Shown here one piece after another: positions 1,160-13,771 of a stretch of 21,683 bases of DNA. The position numbers and the translations under genes were made by a program. The notes under the pieces were generated by a model, which did no database searches, was not told the origin of the DNA, and saw nothing but the letters and a program-made list of their open reading frames with translations. Each line of letters opens with the position of its first letter. Positions within the stretch are counted from its first letter, which is position 1. The DNA comes from a virus: IMG/VR virus record IMGVR_UViG_3300007734_000463, positions 1-21,683 of that record; one strand, 5' to 3'.

Positions 1160-1192
1160 AATATATATCCTTTCGTAGTTACTATAACGCTA

Positions 1193-1221
1193 AGTGTACC
1201 ATATTTATTCCCTAATGTCAA
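1193..1221 (-). promoter_or_regulatory. Sigma70-type promoter, leftward
   Basis: On the minus strand TTGACA (1221-1216) is followed after exactly 17 bases by TACACT (1198-1193), a near-consensus -35/-10 pair. It lies in the only gene-free gap (about 100 bp) between the 61-aa gene ending at 1262 and the 50-aa gene starting at 1159. The predicted start is about 1186. It should drive the 50-, 77-, 38- and 65-aa genes and the nuclease. Use of a host-like promoter implies recognition by host RNA polymerase. Confidence 0.8.
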
Positions 1222-1261
1222 GAGATATTTACAATACTATTACACATAAGCATTACTTATA

Positions 1262-1447
1262 CTACTCACTACCACCGTAACTGATAAACTGCTCGTCTAA
1301 CCTACCCTTTTCATTGAGCGCATCACAGATAGTATGTGCCTGTTCCTGACTGGAACACTCAGCAATACCTAGGTATAGGTCGAACGGATCTTCGCAAATC
1401 AGTACGAAATAAGACTCACCAATCAACGCAACAATAGCATTAGTCAT
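1262..1447 (-). CDS. Hypothetical protein, 61 aa
   Basis: Product MTNAIVALIGESYFVLICED continues with a mixed alpha/beta pattern and ends QFISYGGSE. GAGGAAG stands four bases before the ATG, and the start overlaps the TAA of the preceding 61-aa gene. It is the last gene of the first leftward unit before the promoter gap. The SSQEQAHTICDALNE segment resembles the helix of small phage proteins that pair a short sheet with one helix, but no family can be named. Confidence 0.65.
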   Translation of the reverse strand: MTNAIVALIGESYFVLICEDPFDLYLGIAECSSQEQAHTICDALNEKGRLDEQFISYGGSE

Positions 1448-1632
1448 TACACTTCCTCATACTCGTGAGCAACAATAGAAATATTCTGCAACACATACTC
1501 TATAAAGTCTGCGGGAATATTCCCATTAACAATAGAGTCGGGATCGTCAGTCTCATAATCAACATGCACATACATAGCCTCAAACGAAGGCTCGAAGATT
1601 AACTCTACATCAAACGAATAGTCTTTGATCAT
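1447..1632 (-). CDS. Small acidic hypothetical protein, 61 aa
   Basis: Product begins MIKDYSFDVELIFEPSFEAM and is strongly acidic. The ATG at 1632 overlaps the TGA of the upstream 184-aa gene (ATGA), while the ribosome site is poor (GGTGG), so it is probably translated by coupling. A longer reading from a TTG is possible but would run into the end of the upstream gene without a ribosome site. No family recognised. Confidence 0.6.
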   Translation of the reverse strand: MIKDYSFDVELIFEPSFEAMYVHVDYETDDPDSIVNGNIPADFIEYVLQNISIVAHEYEEV

Positions 1633-2183
1633 GCTGCACCACCACGGTAAGCAATCCAAACAGCAGCCTGAGTATCACGAGGAGTCATACCAAACACATC
1701 AGCAAGACTATGACAAGCCTCCGTAACCTCACTACGAATCTTCTTAGTCACATCACTACCATAACCAGCAGCATAAGACATGATACTATCCACCGTGACG
1801 GGCTGAGTATGCCCAAGAATATTCAGGTAAAAGTTACTAACCTTCTCACCAGTCACCAACTTAGAGTAGTAACGATCCGTCATTACCTGAGTACCCTTAC
1901 GAGCATTAGCACCAAGAATACCATACGACGACTGTCGCATATACTCAGGCACAAACGAGTCAGCAACAATACTATACGTTGCCTCTACATTCTTACCCCA
2001 ACGAGCACGAGGAGAAGTGACCGCCATGACAGCAGCAACACGCTGAGCAGACACACCATACTCTTTGGATACATTAAGGCAATGAGTCCACGCCTCAGGA
2101 TACCACGCCTGTCCCTCAATAGCAGCCTGCTCGATACCATAAGCATCAACAATACGATAGAACTTGTTGGCAATACTAGACAT
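1629..2183 (-). CDS. Conserved phage protein of unknown function, 184 aa (possible HhH-like fold)
   Basis: The start at 2183 is supported by AAGGAG seven bases upstream. The N-terminal half has WYPEAW, a YGVS segment, then AAVMAVTSPRARWGKNVEAT; the second half has VSNFYLNILG then PVTVDSIMSYAAG. I recognise this pattern from phage hypothetical proteins (often in actinobacterial phages). The order, a helix-rich region, a Lys before a helix and later an Asp in a PVTVD stretch, loosely resembles helix-hairpin-helix DNA glycosylases. That similarity is only a pattern match, and the canonical hairpin glycines are not clear. It overlaps DUF3846 upstream and the 61-aa gene downstream. Confidence 0.75.
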   Translation of the reverse strand: MSSIANKFYRIVDAYGIEQAAIEGQAWYPEAWTHCLNVSKEYGVSAQRVAAVMAVTSPRARWGKNVEATYSIVADSFVPEYMRQSSYGILGANARKGTQVMTDRYYSKLVTGEKVSNFYLNILGHTQPVTVDSIMSYAAGYGSDVTKKIRSEVTEACHSLADVFGMTPRDTQAAVWIAYRGGAA

Positions 2184-2514
2184 TTGCAATCTCCTTAAGA
2201 TTAGCATTGAGCCACTCGGTAGTGAGTGTCATCATTTCACCTTCATCATCACAGTCACCGACAATAAGCATGTTGCCAGCAATCCAATCATCACCATAGA
2301 TAGCATTATGAGCATGAGCAATATCAGTAGCAACCTGATTCTTGGGCAGCCCTTCCAACTTGCCTTCCTCATTTACATAAGCCGTAGCACCATCAAGATA
2401 CACAGGCTCAATATAACCATGCACCACACCAACCATATCATCGTAAGTCATAACTTCGGGCAACTCCCGGACTACCTTCATTCCACTAGGCGTAATCACT
2501 GCATAAGTAAACAT
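2176..2514 (-). CDS. DUF3846 family protein, 112 aa
   Basis: The product carries the hallmarks of DUF3846: a segment VGVVHGYIEPVYLDGATAYV, then NEEGKLEGLPKNQVAT, an AIYGDDWIAGNMLIVGDCDDEGE stretch and a hydrophobic end. The family is common in phages and mobile elements and its biochemical role is unknown; it is frequently found near DNA metabolism or antirestriction genes, as here next to ArdC. GAGGAAG precedes the ATG at 2514, which overlaps the stop of the 62-aa gene. Length is normal for the family. Confidence 0.8.
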   Translation of the reverse strand: MFTYAVITPSGMKVVRELPEVMTYDDMVGVVHGYIEPVYLDGATAYVNEEGKLEGLPKNQVATDIAHAHNAIYGDDWIAGNMLIVGDCDDEGEMMTLTTEWLNANLKEIANV

Positions 2515-2702
2515 TATACTTCCTCGATTTCTACTTTAGTAACATTACCAACACCAACACTCGTATAATCCAGATAATAAGACTCAATACCATCCAAACC
2601 TACCATAGTAATACCCTCATCAATAGCAGAAAGCAAACTACTACTAACAACCCTAGCAGTAATACTAACCGGAACAGTAAAGGTAACATAATAAGCATCC
2701 AT
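2514..2702 (-). CDS. Hypothetical protein, 62 aa
   Basis: Product MDAYYVTFTVPVSITARVVS then SSLLSAIDEGITMVG; alternating hydrophobic residues suggest a small beta-alpha-beta fold. TTGGAG is five bases before the ATG, and the start overlaps the TAA of the upstream gene (TAATG). The ends of this and several neighbouring small proteins are similar in style (...VEIEEV, ...HEYEEV), which may reflect distant relatedness of these small early proteins (weak inference). No family recognised. Confidence 0.65.
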   Translation of the reverse strand: MDAYYVTFTVPVSITARVVSSSLLSAIDEGITMVGLDGIESYYLDYTSVGVGNVTKVEIEEV

Positions 2703-2911
2703 TATAACTCCAATCCATAAGTAGGAAACGAATCATCACTAGCCTCATCACAATAAGTATACCAGTCAGACAAATGCTCAGCATAAAACTCATCAGGTAC
2801 ACGGTAATCCTCAAACGTACTACGCTCAACCTCATCAGTATCAGCCCAATAAGCCTCAGTCACATCATCCAACATACGATCATAAGCCAGATCACTCAGA
2901 TCATTCACCAT
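2702..2911 (-). CDS. Acidic hypothetical protein, 69 aa
   Basis: Product begins MVNDLSDLAYDRMLDDVTEA and is very rich in Asp, Glu, Tyr and Trp. A longer open frame runs upstream to 3007 but passes through structured hairpin A; the ATG at 2911 is chosen because AAAGGAGG ends five bases before it, directly after the hairpin. High negative charge and small size are typical of DNA-mimic inhibitors as well as of many unrelated phage proteins, so function is open. Its neighbour upstream is ArdC. Confidence 0.7.
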   Translation of the reverse strand: MVNDLSDLAYDRMLDDVTEAYWADTDEVERSTFEDYRVPDEFYAEHLSDWYTYCDEASDDSFPTYGLEL

Positions 2912-2926
2912 TCCAACCTCCTTTAT

Positions 2927-2974
2927 CTCTCTATATAAATACTCTTCACTTCGTTCAGAGTATTTATTAGAGAG
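2927..2974 (-). promoter_or_regulatory. Structured RNA hairpin, copy A (leader of 69-aa gene)
   Basis: Sense-strand reading: outer stem CTCTCTA/TAGAGAG (7 bp), one unpaired A on the 3' side, middle stem ATAAATACTCT/AGAGTATTTAT (11 bp), and loop GAACGAAGTGA. The loop can close further as a tandem G-A pair plus AC/GU around a GAA triloop. TATATA precedes the element, and ATAAAGGAGG, the ribosome site, follows at once. Copies B and C share loop, outer stem and bulged A but have different, compensated middle stems. It lies between ardC and the 69-aa gene. Confidence 0.85.
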
Positions 2975-2993
2975 TATATAATCAGCAGCCTCT

Positions 2994-3920
2994 TTACGCA
3001 ACTGCATAAGTGTTCTCCATAATCATATCAGCAGCGTAACTAGCAGCGTTAGCCGCAGAGAACAGCAACTTAGGCTCATCCTTACAACGCTTAGCCCATG
3101 CCTTCAGGTAAGCAGCAGACTGAGAATCATCAAGTGGGACACCAGTATTAGCACACATAAACGCGGAAGCAAACTCAGCAATCAATTCTTCTTTCGCATA
3201 GTTATCACCAGTAACACGGGCTTCTCCTCCTCTATCACTATTATCTAGCCGATTAGTACGAGACTTGTGACCAGTACTATGCGCCATTTCGTGAAACATA
3301 GTATGGTAGTACGCTTCTAGCGACTCGAACTGGTCAAGGTCAGGCATCTCAATACGATCAAGATCAGAAATATAACATGCACGATCACCACCATGATGCA
3401 GCCCACCACCTAGAATATCACACCACTCAGTAGAGATAAGATCAGCCTCAGGATACCCATTATCCTCATGATCATAACCCTCAACCTCTACCTCAGGCAA
3501 CTCGAAGGTATCAAGACCATCAATCTGCGAGCCGTTAAAAACCCTGTAGTAGCGCTGAAACCACGAAGTCTTAGTCTCAACCTCACCCGTAGACTCATCC
3601 TCAACGTCACGCTTAGTAGCCTTATTGTAGATGACGATGGTGGACTTGCTACCCTTCTTCACCTGCATACCTTCATCAAGGCTGTTCATTGTGTAGAATC
3701 GTGGATCATTCCAACCATTCTGCTCAACGAGAAAGGACAGGTACATGCTGTTAAACCCTGTGTATACACGGTTACTGACACCATTACGAGGCATCATCGC
3801 ATCATTCCTACCACGAACAATCCATGGCTTAGACCATGGTGCCACACCAGATTCCATCAAGGCAATCAAACCTTCGGTAATCTCAGCGTGAACCTCTGCA
3901 ATGTCAAACTTTTTCTTCAT
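2994..3920 (-). CDS. ardC: ArdC-type antirestriction protein (zincin-like)
   Basis: 308-aa protein with the two-part ArdC layout: an N-terminal ssDNA-binding domain (about 1-140, with WSKPWIVRGRNDAMMPRNG and YTGFNSMYL motifs) and a C-terminal metallopeptidase-like domain. The zinc site is HEMAH at 210-214 with KEELIAE (244-249) supplying the likely third ligand, followed by a FASAF helix. ArdC proteins from plasmids and phages bind single-stranded DNA and protect incoming DNA from restriction. Length is normal and the catalytic residues are intact. The ATG at 3920 follows AAAGGGG, itself directly after hairpin B; hairpin A follows the stop. The gene is thus bracketed by two copies of the same RNA element. 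Confidence 0.92.
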   Translation of the reverse strand: MKKKFDIAEVHAEITEGLIALMESGVAPWSKPWIVRGRNDAMMPRNGVSNRVYTGFNSMYLSFLVEQNGWNDPRFYTMNSLDEGMQVKKGSKSTIVIYNKATKRDVEDESTGEVETKTSWFQRYYRVFNGSQIDGLDTFELPEVEVEGYDHEDNGYPEADLISTEWCDILGGGLHHGGDRACYISDLDRIEMPDLDQFESLEAYYHTMFHEMAHSTGHKSRTNRLDNSDRGGEARVTGDNYAKEELIAEFASAFMCANTGVPLDDSQSAAYLKAWAKRCKDEPKLLFSAANAASYAADMIMENTYAVA

Positions 3921-3935
3921 TTTGTTCCCCTTTAT

Positions 3936-3983
3936 CTCTCTATATAATTACTCTTCACTTCGTTCAGAGTAATTATTAGAGAG
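3936..3983 (-). promoter_or_regulatory. Structured RNA hairpin, copy B (leader of ardC)
   Basis: Same architecture as copies A and C: outer stem CTCTCTA/TAGAGAG, bulged A, middle stem ATAATTACTCT/AGAGTAATTAT, loop GAACGAAGTGA, then ATAAAGGGG as the ardC ribosome site. Relative to copy A, the middle-stem differences on one arm are matched on the other, so pairing is preserved. The tandem TAA stops of the 68-aa gene (3978-3973) fall in its 5' arm, so ribosomes finishing that gene would reach the outer stem. Confidence 0.85.
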
Positions 3984-4182
3984 TATATACCGTTGCCGAA
4001 TTGACTTCTTGCACATGCGCTACATCATTCCAATCGTAACCCATGCCCTGCACATAATCCATAAGATCCTCTACAAAACCAGCCTCTTGTGCTACATACT
4101 CATACGATTCCAATGCCCAATAGTCAGCATGACTAAGCACATCATCATTCCACTCAATAACATACAACATATCTTCGTTCAT
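3976..4182 (-). CDS. Acidic hypothetical protein, 68 aa
   Basis: Product begins MNEDMLYVIEWNDDVLSHAD and is rich in acidic and aromatic residues, like the 66- and 69-aa neighbours. The ATG at 4182 is chosen because AAAGGG is seven bases upstream; longer readings to 4242 lack a ribosome site. That ribosome site lies within a small triloop hairpin (4190-4202). The last codons and stop are inside hairpin B of ardC. No family recognised. Confidence 0.65.
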   Translation of the reverse strand: MNEDMLYVIEWNDDVLSHADYWALESYEYVAQEAGFVEDLMDYVQGMGYDWNDVAHVQEVNSATVYTL

Positions 4183-4284: not shown

Positions 4285-4485
4285 CTACCTACGTACCTGA
4301 GCCTCTTGCAAAGCAACATCAGCATTATGATGAGCCAAAGCATTCCAACTAGCATCATGGAAGTCTTCCCACTCACTCACAAACTCATCACTATCATCGT
4401 GAGGATTCACATACCACACCTCATAGAAACCATTATTACCGTCAATGATATGGTAATCTCCGATTACCCTACATGTAGCAAACAT
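4285..4485 (-). CDS. Acidic hypothetical protein, 66 aa
   Basis: Product begins MFATCRVIGDYHIIDGNNGF and continues YEVWYVNPHDDSDEF, an acidic, aromatic-rich sequence. The ATG at 4485 overlaps the TAA of the upstream 82-aa gene (TAATG); GGAAAGG is about nine bases upstream. A GTG three codons earlier is an alternative start. Composition resembles the 68- and 69-aa proteins. No family recognised. Confidence 0.6.
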   Translation of the reverse strand: MFATCRVIGDYHIIDGNNGFYEVWYVNPHDDSDEFVSEWEDFHDASWNALAHHNADVALQEAQVRR

Positions 4486-4733
4486 TATGCACACACCTTT
4501 CCATCCCGATCATCACCGGGCATCCGACTACTAGTTGGCAGTCCTTTAGGACTCACAATATCCGTAACATGACGCTTACCACGCTTAGCATAACCCCTAC
4601 CAGTAGCAGCAAACTGAGCAGCCACCTTCACACTATGCACATCATCGTACACGATCACATCATATACACGATCCCCAATGACCGCGACGCGCGTCTCGCG
4701 GATTACGCGGTTTTGTTTACGAGCCTTACGCAT
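4485..4733 (-). CDS. Basic hypothetical protein, 82 aa
   Basis: Product begins MRKARKQNRVIRETRVAVIG and is Arg/Lys-rich at both ends around a short beta-like core (RVYDVIVYDDVHSVKVAAQF). Charge suggests nucleic-acid binding (inference). The ATG at 4733 follows AAGGA by six bases. The ribosome site is inside a perfect 6-bp triloop hairpin (4738-4752). It follows the zinc-ribbon gene and overlaps the start of the 66-aa gene. No family recognised. Confidence 0.65.
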   Translation of the reverse strand: MRKARKQNRVIRETRVAVIGDRVYDVIVYDDVHSVKVAAQFAATGRGYAKRGKRHVTDIVSPKGLPTSSRMPGDDRDGKVCA

Positions 4734-4737
4734 ATAG

Positions 4738-4752
4738 ATTCCTTTCAGGAAT
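4738..4752 (-). promoter_or_regulatory. Triloop hairpin masking the ribosome site of the 82-aa gene
   Basis: Sense-strand ATTCCT-GAA-AGGAAT is a perfect 6-bp stem with a GAA triloop. The AAGGAAT 3' side is the ribosome site for the ATG at 4733, so folding would hide it. The GAA loop matches the loops tiling the gene just upstream. Confidence 0.6.
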
Positions 4753-4777
4753 GGACACGAACAGGGAGTTTAGCACA

Positions 4778-5200
4778 CTTGACTCTACGAGTCAAGCCGT
4801 ACCTTACGAGAGACTTTCACACGAGTCCCACCGACAACAACACTTACAGTGTTGTGACCCTTCTTGCCTTGCCGACCAACGATAGTAACAGAGTTACTAT
4901 CCGACGTAGCCAAAGCAACGTAGCAAACTTTGCAAATGCCTTCGGCATTGACTCGGTAATGCTTTTTGGCAAAGCCACAGCAACGGCACTTGACTTTTTT
5001 GACGGCAACCTTCGGTTCCACAATCTCCTCCTTCGGAGCAACAGTCTCATCGTCTTCGACGATCTTCACACCAACCTCATCTTCGATGAGGTCATCCAAC
5101 TCAACACCTTCGGTGTTCTCCATCAGTTCTTCGAACTGAGCCAACTCCTTCGGAGAAAGATTCTCCAACCATTCTTCGAATGCCAACTCAACTTCGTTGA
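4778..5200 (-). repeat. Series of ~15 small triloop hairpins inside the zinc-ribbon gene
   Basis: Perfect stems with 3-nt loops lie at 4778-4796 (8 bp), 4837-4855 (8), 4881-4901 (9), 4923-4933 (4), 4935-4949 (6), 4967-4977 (4), 5007-5017 (4), 5028-5038 (4), 5049-5063 (6), 5074-5092 (8), 5103-5117 (6), 5123-5139 (7), 5145-5155 (4; alternative 5152-5166, 6), 5170-5182 (5) and 5188-5200 (5). Ten loops read C-GAA-G in the sense strand. Stem sequences differ, so the constant is the shape and loop. GAA is in frame as Glu in seven cases and out of frame (Pro-Lys codons) in three. The TAG stop (4787-4785) lies partly in the loop of the first listed hairpin. Confidence 0.85.
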
Positions 5201-5216
5201 TGCTTCGGTTCAACAT
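4785..5216 (-). CDS. Zinc-ribbon protein with acidic N-terminus, 143 aa
   Basis: First gene of the leftward early unit. Residues 1-70 are acidic and helical (FEEWLENLSPKELAQFEELM, then Asp/Glu/Val-rich). Residues 77-98 hold CRCCGF...GICKVC (Cys77, 79, 80, 95, 98), a zinc-ribbon/knuckle. The C-terminus is basic (VKVSRKVRL). A charge-split protein with a zinc ribbon suggests nucleic-acid or polymerase binding (inference); no named family. AAGGAG precedes the ATG at 5216 by seven bases, directly after hairpin C. Its DNA is tiled by small triloop hairpins, and the repeated E-G, E-D, K-E residue pairs look partly dictated by them. Confidence 0.75.
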   Translation of the reverse strand: MLNRSINEVELAFEEWLENLSPKELAQFEELMENTEGVELDDLIEDEVGVKIVEDDETVAPKEEIVEPKVAVKKVKCRCCGFAKKHYRVNAEGICKVCYVALATSDSNSVTIVGRQGKKGHNTVSVVVGGTRVKVSRKVRLDS

Positions 5217-5232
5217 TTTCGGTCTCCTTTAT

Positions 5233-5280
5233 CTCTCTATATAAAATATCTTCACTTCGTTCAGATATTTTATTAGAGAG
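5233..5280 (-). promoter_or_regulatory. Structured RNA hairpin, copy C (leader of zinc-ribbon gene)
   Basis: Sense strand: CTCTCTA/TAGAGAG outer stem, bulged A, middle stem ATAAAATATCT/AGATATTTTAT, loop GAACGAAGTGA, followed by ATAAAGGAG as ribosome site. Four middle-stem positions differ from copy A and/or B and every change is compensated. Total length, 48 nt, is identical in all three copies, and TATATA precedes each. Confidence 0.85.
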
Positions 5281-5297
5281 TATATAAATCTCAGCCA

Positions 5298-5670
5298 GAC
5301 CATCTTCGATGGTCAACGTGTATCTCAACGAAGTTGAGACAAAAATAGTATCGTAGATACTAAAAACCATATCGAAGATATGACCAACAAACCAACATAA
5401 ACAAAACTTATATTACTCTGTAATATAAGACTATCACTACCTAAAGGTAGTGATAGAAGTAGTAATATCAATAGATATTACTATAATGTTTTGGTACTAA
5501 AACATTTTACAAACTTTGTTTGTAAAGAATTATTCTATTATATATAATAATAAGGGAACCTTATTATATATATATATAGTCCTCATCCAAAAATGTACGA
5601 CCCTCAACGTATACACCCTCTAAGAGAGGGTATATACGAAATCCACAAACCTCAGGCTTCACAAAGTGAA
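5298..5670. repeat. Non-coding array of about 12 tandem hairpins
   Basis: No gene here. Consecutive perfect stems: 5298-5314 (7 bp, TTC loop), 5323-5339 (7, GAA), 5346-5362 (7, GTA), 5368-5382 (6, GAA), 5407-5429 (10, TCT), 5431-5456 (11, TAAA), 5460-5483 (10, AATA), 5485-5506 (8, six-base loop), 5507-5525 (8, TTT), 5547-5567 (9, GAA), 5608-5638 (6+7 bp around one mismatch, AAG) and 5658-5670 (5, AAA). A self-complementary AT stretch (5536-5549) lies between. Stems share no sequence. Many abut with 1-10 bases between, so the region folds as a string of hairpins on either strand. It continues the hairpin series of the adjacent coding gene. Confidence 0.85.
5563..5590 (-). promoter_or_regulatory. 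Candidate leftward early promoter
   Basis: Minus-strand TTGGAT (5590-5585), 16-base spacer, TATAAT (5568-5563). The -10 is a perfect match but sits in an alternating AT tract; the -35 matches only TTG. If real, transcription starts near 5556 and gives a leader of about 340 nt carrying most of the hairpin array and hairpin C before the zinc-ribbon gene. Confidence 0.35.
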
Positions 5671-5779
5671 TACCAATACCCATCCCCCCTTTTACATACC
5701 CACACATATATATAATTACACTATTTGTATTTTTGGTTATTTTGTGTTTATAACTTATGTTGGGGGTTTTGTTTATTAT

Positions 5780-5800
5780 TTGTGTTAAGGTTGTGTTAAG
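5780..5800 (+). repeat. Tandem 10-nt direct repeat TTGTGTTAAG
   Basis: TTGTGTTAAG occurs at 5780-5789 and 5791-5800, separated by one G. Spacing of 11 bp (about one helical turn) would suit a dimeric regulator binding one face of the DNA near the rightward promoter (inference). Confidence 0.5.
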
Positions 5801-5820
5801 TTGTATTTAATTTGTTACTT

Positions 5821-5848
5821 TTGTGCTGTTGGTTTCGTATAGTATAGT
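5821..5848 (+). promoter_or_regulatory. Candidate rightward late promoter
   Basis: TTGTGC (5821-5826), 16-base spacer, TATAGT (5843-5848); a second TATAGT overlaps at 5838-5843. The match is partial. Predicted start about 5855, giving a T-rich leader of roughly 60 nt before the ATG at 5917. Confidence 0.35.
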
Positions 5849-5916
5849 AGAGGGGTTTATTTTTCTTCTTTCTTTTTTTTTTATTTTTATTCTTCTGGTG
5901 AAGGGATGTTATTGTT

Positions 5917-6597
5917 ATGGCTTATACTGCTCCTAGTGCTGTTGTTGCTGCTCAGGCTATTACTGCTTCGTTGTATAATACTTATGTTAAGGATAATATT
6001 ATTGATTTGAATGCTAGGTTGGGTCAGCAGGCGGGTATTTATACTACTGAGGCTGTTCGTGATGCGGCTATTACTAGTCCTACTGAGGGTATGGTGTGTT
6101 ATTTGACGGCTCCTACTGTTCCGGCTGCTACTGGTACGACAACGATGATCCCGTCTGGTATTCGTACGGTGTATAATGGTTCTGTTTGGGTGTGTGTGAC
6201 GGAGGTTGCGGCGACTACGCCAGCGTCGGGAACTACAACGAGTACTTCGTTTACGGCGACGCTTTCTGGTTCTCCGGGTACGAATCCGTCTGTGACGCTT
6301 GTTACTGGGACGACGGCGATGATTATGGTTCGTGCGGGTTTGCAGAATGGTACGGCTGGTTCGGCGGCTCTTTGTTCTGTGGCTGTGTCTGGCGCAACGA
6401 CAAAAGCGGCGGCATTGGATGATCAGGGAATCGCGTTTCGTTCGGCAACGGCATCAAATGATGCTATTATTGGGTCAAGTGTAGTTATGTCTGGATTGAC
6501 GGCAGGTACTAATACTTTCACTTTAAACTATGCAACGTCTAGTGCAAGTACGTCTACATTTGTGCGTCGTACGCTTGCTGTTCGTGGTATTGCTTAG
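5917..6597 (+). CDS. Virion structural protein (head or tail fibre/decoration type), 226 aa
   Basis: First gene of the rightward arm. GAAGGGAT lies about ten bases before the ATG. The N-terminus (AAQAITASLYNTYVKDNIID) matches the start of many phage tail/fibre proteins, and SPTEGMVCYLT...RTVYNGSVWVCV is the common short fold in which a Gly-Met-Tyr strand is followed by YNGSxW. The second half is Thr/Ser/Ala/Gly-rich and beta-like, ending FVRRTLAVRGIA. It is best read as a surface or fibre component. A structural gene upstream of the terminase is somewhat unusual but seen in small podovirus-like genomes. Codon use changes after about 6390 from T-ending to A/C-richer codons. Confidence 0.65.
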   Translation: MAYTAPSAVVAAQAITASLYNTYVKDNIIDLNARLGQQAGIYTTEAVRDAAITSPTEGMVCYLTAPTVPAATGTTTMIPSGIRTVYNGSVWVCVTEVAATTPASGTTTSTSFTATLSGSPGTNPSVTLVTGTTAMIMVRAGLQNGTAGSAALCSVAVSGATTKAAALDDQGIAFRSATASNDAIIGSSVVMSGLTAGTNTFTLNYATSSASTSTFVRRTLAVRGIA

Positions 6598-13744: not shown

Positions 13745-13771
13745 TGGGAGAGGGGCTTTGCCCCTCTCCCA
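13745..13771 (+). terminator. GC-rich hairpin after the capsid gene
   Basis: A perfect stem GGGAGAGGGGC / GCCCCTCTCCC (11 bp, plus a closing T-A) with a TTT triloop, ten bases after the capsid stop. ATTCTTATATT follows rather than a clean T run, so it may be a weak terminator or a 3'-end stabiliser that keeps capsid mRNA in excess over downstream genes. Strongest GC hairpin in the rightward arm. Confidence 0.65.

Follow-up and report, generated by a model that had tools for sequence, protein, structure and literature searches.

Why should a small viral gene be filled with short perfect hairpins, and do such hairpins belong to the gene, to its RNA or to the DNA around it? The question was raised by a sequence-only reading of a 21,683-base virus record (the whole stretch analysed here, referred to as the window), in which a zinc-ribbon gene was seen to be tiled by about 15 perfect triloop hairpins and the shape of its RNA, or of cruciform DNA, was proposed to be constrained beyond the protein. 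The leftward early genes of the window encode an ArdC-like anti-restriction protein, a DUF7178 protein and small proteins, and its rightward late genes encode a terminase, a P22/SU10-like portal, a major head protein, an SU10-like adaptor and an internal virion protein. The zinc-ribbon (CxxC...CxxC) gene is the first of the leftward genes (4785-5216, minus strand, 143 aa).

The hairpins are real, far beyond chance, and not confined to the gene. Among the 25 non-overlapping perfect hairpins of the window (stem of at least 6 bp, loop of 3-4 nt), 20 lie within 4738-5631, an array of about 900 letters that spans the zinc-ribbon gene and the divergent intergenic region above it; the 19 hairpins in 4778-5631 cover 41% of that stretch. 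The intergenic stems are longer than the genic ones (up to 11 bp) and the cluster runs to 5631. The first description, with the coding gene as the feature, is not supported: it is the intergenic part that stays constant. Most loops measure 3-4 nt, rarely as many as 6, and besides GAA they include TCT, GTA, AGA, TTT, TAAA, AATA and others. The features are listed below, with a strand where one applies.

4738-5631: whole hairpin array, with 20 of the window's 25 perfect hairpins
4785-5216, minus strand: zinc-ribbon gene, 143 aa, eight hairpins of stem at least 6 bp
5217-5640: intergenic part with the longest hairpins, within the divergent region 5217-5916
4738-4752: hairpin just below the gene, 6-bp stem, triloop
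4778-4796: hairpin across the stop codon, 8-bp stem, triloop
4837-4855: hairpin, 8-bp stem, loop GTA in the sense strand
4881-4901: hairpin, 9-bp stem, loop TCT in the sense strand
4935-4949: hairpin aatgccGAAggcatt (sense), identical in 11 of 11 aligned full-length genes of the closer clade
5049-5063: hairpin, 6-bp stem, loop GAA in the sense strand
5074-5092: hairpin, 8-bp stem, loop GAA in the sense strand; arms differ in locus L023 together with the protein
5103-5117: hairpin, 6-bp stem, loop GAA in the sense strand
5123-5139: hairpin, 7-bp stem, loop GAA in the sense strand
5152-5166: hairpin, 6-bp stem, loop TCT in the sense strand
5224-5287, minus strand: leader repeat, long hairpin with CTGAACGAAGTGAAG apex, directly before the likely Shine-Dalgarno sequence
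5298-5314: intergenic hairpin, 7-bp stem, loop TTC on the plus strand
5323-5339: intergenic hairpin, 7-bp stem, loop GAA on the plus strand
5346-5362: intergenic hairpin, 7-bp stem, loop GTA on the plus strand
5368-5382: intergenic hairpin, 6-bp stem, loop GAA on the plus strand
5407-5429: intergenic hairpin, 10-bp stem, triloop
5431-5456: intergenic hairpin, 11-bp stem, tetraloop; the sole terminator-like site of the scan (minus strand)
5460-5483: intergenic hairpin, 10-bp stem, tetraloop
5485-5506: intergenic hairpin, 8-bp stem, loop of 6
5506-5526: intergenic hairpin, 9-bp stem, triloop
5547-5567: intergenic hairpin, 9-bp stem, triloop, G-C closed (unusual in the array)
5615-5631: last intergenic hairpin, 7-bp stem, triloop

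The first description of the gene held up well in its counts. There are 16 non-overlapping perfect triloops with stems of at least 4 bp in 4778-5216, and nine have stems of at least 6 bp, as had been reported, eight of them wholly in the gene and one (4778-4796) straddling the stop codon; their starts differ in reading frame, again as noted. Ten sense-strand C-GAA-G loops had been counted; nine are non-overlapping (stem of at least 4 bp) and the tenth, at 5145-5155, overlaps the alternative hairpin at 5152-5166. Against the eight triloop hairpins of stem at least 6 bp observed in the gene, dinucleotide shuffles gave a mean of 0.11 (maximum 2, 500 trials), codon-usage resampling gave 0.30 (maximum 3, 2000 trials), and synonymous codon permutation, the check that had been suggested, gave 0.55 (maximum 4, 2000 trials). 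Only one triloop of this kind was found in 14 other window genes taken together. Six homologues of the gene hold 3-7 hairpins each, numbers that were reached in 0-2 of 1000 codon permutations, and the 424-bp intergenic part holds eight hairpins vs 0.28 in shuffles.

Another 26 contigs were seen to carry the zinc-ribbon gene, which makes 27 with the window. Counts were made on 23 loci, the window and 22 of these contigs; L024, L026 and L138 were left out as near copies of L023, L027 and L137, respectively, and L030 because its contig begins inside the array. The left-out loci carry clusters as well, with 15 (L024), 14 (L026), 8 (L138, counted as the same-contig locus L119) and 6 (L030) hairpins of stem at least 7 bp per kb. 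Each of the 23 loci has 5-12 hairpins of stem at least 7 bp within 650 bp upstream of the gene, where shuffle means are 0.15-0.40 (L027 and L038 are identical in this stretch). Inside the gene, hairpins of stem at least 6 bp vary from 1 to 10 across loci, four of the genes being cut by a contig end; in a more diverged clade three of six members (L137, L140, L142) have a single genic hairpin, and their intergenic array stays at 8-9.

The link between gene and array was also viewed from the capsid gene, for which 80 loci were kept from 86, with 13 extending more than 3 kb before the terminase. Eight of the 13 have both the zinc-ribbon gene and the array, and four (L067, L100, L111, L118) have neither, with at most three hairpins of stem at least 7 bp in any kb; L118 keeps only a piece that matches the C-terminal part of the zinc-ribbon protein, and the absence of the gene from L100 refers to the 21-kb locus alone, which was the part searched. 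Since these four relatives lack it, the array cannot be an origin or promoter on which this gene order depends. The thirteenth locus, L076, has no zinc-ribbon gene and a partial cluster, five hairpins of stem at least 7 bp within 1 kb, not below the poorest zinc-ribbon locus (L028, 5 in 650 bp), and the link of array to gene is therefore not absolute. Five other capsid loci start inside the array and are silent on the gene. The gene-array link rests on few negatives and on a count that ignores shared ancestry. No array was found in two named capsid relatives, Arthrobacter phage Jasmine and Microbacterium phage Shocker. Five long contigs were scanned: G010, G011 and G012 have one dense array each, at the sign change of the GC skew, and in G014 and G016 the scan found no array although the GC skew changes sign.

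A second, unrelated group of tailed viruses (loci L228-L232, L172 and L176; records G021 and G022) has arrays of the same make-up as the window's. Two pattern scans for single hairpin types gave 58 new loci, of which 13 have six or more hairpins of stem at least 7 bp in a kb; eleven of these are contigs from the lineage of the window, and the other two, 64 kb long, have no match to the window proteins tested. The 64-kb contigs encode a terminase domain, a phage tail tube, a family B DNA polymerase, a clamp-loader-like ATPase and an ERCC4 nuclease, a gene set which we take to be archaeal-virus-like. Their hairpins of stem at least 7 bp number 117 and 130, where base shuffles in 2-kb blocks give 5-13, and the peaks are 19 and 23 per kb. 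Three more contigs of the group were found by protein search, and the array stretches marked in the five (L228-L232) are 3.5-5.3 kb long, 29-42% hairpin-covered, and tile coding genes; L229 and L230, and likewise L231 and L232, may be near copies, because their match scores are equal. A 350-aa gene of this group has 26 hairpins of stem at least 6 bp, against a mean of 1.7 and a maximum of 6 in 300 synonymous permutations. The group's triloops, 132 distinct ones in all, have C-G closing in 92 cases and a GNA or TNC loop in 90. The arrays of the second group adjoin other genes than that of the window's lineage.

We propose, with a probability of about 0.43, that the array is a set of DNA mini-hairpins (cruciforms) at the leftward-early/rightward-late junction in a lineage of tailed phages, from which it extends into the first early gene, with a function that is inferred. 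Divergent transcription should concentrate negative supercoiling at this junction (twin-domain model). Such supercoiling would extrude the hairpins, as it does the single promoter hairpins of phage N4, and from that point onward the steps are ones that we infer: the extruded array may take up superhelical stress, and may offer early transcription or replication proteins a loading site of structured or single-stranded DNA. In the window's lineage the likeliest candidate for a hairpin-binding partner is the zinc-ribbon protein, whose gene lies next to every full array on contigs that cover the gene side. Selection would act on having many extrudable hairpins and not on their sequence, which would lead to fast turnover and to hairpins that cut across codons.

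The turnover itself was observed: between relatives the array is kept in kind, not in sequence. Stem changes were compared in 12 locus pairs, which share loci and are not independent, and 11 hairpins crossed by alignment gaps were left out. The six closest pairs (intergenic regions about 90% identical or more) show 14 two-arm stem changes with pairing kept, five stem positions changed on one arm and five changed on both without pairing; over all 12 pairs, in which the distant alignments are less reliable, the numbers are 44 two-arm paired, 59 one-arm and 28 two-arm unpaired. In some hairpins the loop is inverted to its reverse complement on an unchanged stem (ATA/TAT, AAA/TTT, GAA/TTC); among the changed loops of the 12 pairs, 8 of 37 were scored as inverted, and after the L136/L137 case was dropped as misaligned (its stems differ) there are seven cases covering four hairpins. 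The gene of L034 is 98.7% identical to that of L036 with an intergenic identity of 77.2%, and between L036 and L014 the values are 99.2% and 98.5%, so faster intergenic change is not universal. Inside the gene, the same GAA loop is flanked by DLIEDEV in the window and by DSIEDAK in L023, arms and protein having changed together. Amino acids thus change on both sides of a kept hairpin, stems co-vary between relatives, and synonymous shuffles fail to reproduce the hairpins, which upholds the earlier proposal that shape is constrained beyond the protein.

Two-arm paired changes, of the compensatory kind for which a search had also been suggested, were seen, and general synonymous conservation in the coding hairpins was not. 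A first codon test gave synonymous conservation of 0.91 in shared hairpins vs 0.72, with a mask that depends on the outcome; with single-reference masks the effect was gone for three of four references (0.62/0.59, 0.63/0.73, 0.70/0.71) and held for one (0.99/0.72). Synonymous conservation inside hairpins was therefore not used, its mask being outcome-dependent and the signal being lost with three of the four single-reference masks. It follows from the lack of general conservation that hairpin density is kept while single coding hairpins turn over.

These patterns bring in the main and strongest rival to the cruciform-array reading, namely template switching without function: a hot spot of template switching by DNA polymerase (quasi-palindrome correction) near a replication start or pause, where imperfect inverted repeats keep becoming perfect and loops keep inverting, with little or no function for the result. 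Homogenization of arms and inversion of spacers are signatures of template switching in the accessible text of two published studies (PMC8604942, PMC3820800), and the array resembles such sites in both respects, with arms homogenised and spacers inverted in place. The loop inversions on unchanged stems (seven pairwise cases, four hairpins), the two-sided stem changes between close relatives, the intergenic region that can outpace the gene (L034/L036) and the absence of synonymous conservation under three of four single-reference masks all agree with it, and template switching clearly shapes the array. Homogenising and inverting changes are what it would produce in the absence of selection, and the excess of one-arm changes (59) over two-arm paired ones (44) across the 12 pairs also counts against the cruciform reading. 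As an explanation on its own it has more to account for: a strong preference for C-G closing and GNA loops, a similar hairpin number in each of the 23 zinc-ribbon loci, four relatives without an array at the same junction, and two unrelated virus groups whose coding genes are densely tiled. The loop preference could come from a bias of template switching toward hairpins with a good DNA fold. The cases described in the portions seen of the same two sources are isolated inverted repeats (PMC8604942, PMC3820800), whereas the window array is dense and kept in a lineage. The marks of template switching are weaker in the second group, since the two 64-kb members compared show three stem positions changed on two arms with pairing kept, ten changed on one arm, and no inversion among nine changed loops. 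Because of the loop preference, the constancy across 23 loci and the tiling of coding genes, we favor selection acting on top of template switching, and regard a mutational process without function, one biased to well-folding hairpins included, as a possible but less probable account.

A less likely alternative is that the constraint lies in RNA, the hairpins shaping an early leader and mRNA through stability, translation control or decoys for RNA-binding proteins. The loops of the gene lean this way, with 22 GNA and 3 TNC on the sense strand among 42 genic triloops, as does an earlier and smaller tally of mismatches beyond perfect stems (G-T 5, A-C 1), a hint of wobble; a separate CTGAACGAAGTGAAG-apex hairpin also sits just before the likely Shine-Dalgarno sequence. 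In fuller tallies there is no marked G-T excess: intergenic stems with exactly one mismatch have G-T in 6, A-C in 5 and other pairs in 14, and one-mismatch stems of the second group have G-T in 11, A-C in 8 and other pairs in 27. The array stems are almost strictly Watson-Crick. Triloops are closed by C-G in 110 of 134 cases in arrays vs 37 of 233 outside arrays (stem of at least 5 bp). In a count by region, C-G closes 74 of the 91 intergenic and 36 of the 42 genic triloops, and in shuffled intergenic regions the proportion is 59 of 657. Intergenic triloops use both orientations (GNA 22, TNC 12 among 91) and they invert; some are uneven between strands (AGA 8 vs TCT 1, TTT 12 vs AAA 4). On the gene-sense strand of the second group, TNC loops are commoner than GNA loops (55 vs 35). 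Folded as single-stranded DNA, 5217-5516 has a z of -10.1; the gene segment 4917-5216 has -3.8 (sense) and -5.3 (antisense) as DNA and -2.2 (sense) and -4.4 (antisense) as RNA, so the sense RNA is the least unusual of the gene's four folds. Loop inversion on the same stem is most simply explained by a hairpin that formed in DNA. The evidence favors DNA over RNA as the level of the array's structure, on the grounds of Watson-Crick pairing, C-G closing with both loop orientations, loop inversion and the C-GNA-G class; of the two options left open by the sequence-only reading, cruciform DNA is thus preferred, and RNA becomes the less likely one for want of a G-T excess, the loop inversions and the z of -2.2.

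The C-GNA-G class of hairpin in the array is that of the phage N4 promoters, DNA hairpins that supercoiling extrudes and the virion RNA polymerase reads. For these, a C:G closing pair and a loop with 5' G and 3' A are described as required for extrusion in the available part of the source (PMC4496689), which also shows DNA hairpins with 3-nt GNA loops and C:G closing in a phage control region, with stem bases partly free to vary. N4 promoter hairpins are the closest working model for the array. A third of array triloops (44/134, either strand) are of the C-GNA-G type. When positions 1-45,000 of N4 were scanned for C-GNA-G, five hairpins were found, and those at 90, 557 and 4546 directly precede gp1, gp2 and RNAP1. 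A role of the array as a row of N4-type promoters, read by a virion RNA polymerase that enters with the DNA by injection, is nevertheless improbable. None of nine records, several of them fragments, matched the N4 vRNAP core domain or PF00940 in a search that had no positive control, and no match was obtained for a 1889-aa virion-side protein of G011. The three hairpins of N4 stand singly and each belongs to a promoter; the window has about 20 in both loop orientations, mostly unrelated in sequence and also inside a gene.

A guide-RNA stem array like those of TIGR-Tas systems, in which tandem units are variable yet consistently palindromic and which occur in viruses among others, shares that variability with the window (PMC12045711, as far as its accessible text goes), and is very improbable here, for TIGR units are there described as enclosing two 8-12 nt spacers with box C/D, for which window loops of mostly 3-4 nt have no room, and the Nop domain (PF01798) was found in none of nine records with a control that matched in 4 of 14 genomes.

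Short hairpins that recur close to early genes are also familiar from other phages. T4 mRNAs carry UUCG-type stable RNA hairpins and cluster K mycobacteriophages carry start-associated repeats; these act at the RNA level or are one repeated sequence, whereas the window hairpins share no sequence. A survey from 2026 counted perfect inverted repeats across 118,019 genomes and, as far as its accessible text goes, took arms of at least 10 bp (PMC13155455), so that most array hairpins are too short for it. Our literature search, with most subscription papers outside its coverage, found no description of such hairpin arrays, which accords with the earlier remark that no family of coding hairpin tiling in phages was known.

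The array looks like an undescribed kind of DNA structural element. A broader statement, which we put forward tentatively and at somewhat less than even odds, is that these are sequence-unconstrained, supercoil-extrudable mini-hairpins that act by DNA shape alone, have at least two independent origins, in unrelated groups of tailed viruses, and impose the codons and even the amino acids of the genes that they cross. Non-B DNA is usually treated as isolated sites or as a hazard. Here small perfect hairpins, with a loop class known for extrusion in vivo, make up whole kilobases, genes included, in two unrelated virus groups. If the hairpins extrude, viruses use DNA topology as a working part and DNA shape can write a coding sequence; if the hairpins are pure products of template switching, the arrays are strong natural records of that mutation process. 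Taken as a whole, the sequence-only interpretation is partly supported.

The zinc-ribbon protein gave only weak PHROGs and Pfam matches (Cys_rich_CPCC, sub-threshold) and no match among named phages. Its AlphaFold model has a mean pLDDT of 75.7, with no fold match in Foldseek (best E 0.94) and no Z above 2.9 in a VIA search. A profile of the protein against PDB sequences found weak ribosomal-protein look-alikes only (E 0.09-0.97), L37ae for the ribbon and the L7/L12 N-terminus for the first helices. When the zinc-ribbon alignment was scanned over the genome contigs, 54 pattern matches were obtained and none was confirmed. In the window, Rfam 15 gave no match at gathering score and a tRNA scan found nothing. 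Within 5150-5950 there are four promoter-like sites vs 3.9 expected and one terminator-like site vs 0.3 expected, and a direct-repeat search of 4700-5950 gave three weak families and no iteron-like repeats in the intergenic array.

Several minor observations were made along the way. The 64-bp leader repeat at 5224-5287 has further copies at 2918-2981 and 3918-3989 (91% and 85% alike), which precede early genes, the former only if its gene starts later than the longest reading frame; its CTGAACGAAGTGAAG apex is compatible with a C-GAA-G loop on top of tandem G-A mismatches, and the repeat is possibly a start-associated element. Just upstream of the gene in zinc-ribbon loci a tetraloop hairpin recurs with loop CTAT on the gene-sense strand, in 12 distinct sequences with stems of up to 14 bp and differing arms; it is absent from the window. 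In L066 (G010) hairpins extend over 1190-3056, about 1 kb or more past the zinc-ribbon gene and over further early genes. The window's zinc-ribbon gene and the next gene (4485-4733) seem to be two halves of one longer protein, present in L066 (2013-2471), L071, L096 and L110, by gene fission or fusion; the longer protein ends in a KGLPTxSR-like peptide. Beyond the capsid gene, 13745-13771 is a perfect 12-bp G+C-rich hairpin with a TTT loop that resembles a terminator stem, and L015 has one of similar look at 1641-1667. Contigs L007, L030, L037-L040, L054, L055, L057, L059 and L074 end in or at the array, for which assembly breaks (from strain variation or the hairpins) are likelier than true genome ends. 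In G010-G016 and G018-G020, all ten matching records of 11, the DNA polymerase A match falls into two pieces that separate at one common point of the profile (position about 124), and the gap between them ranges from 0 to about 2 kb.
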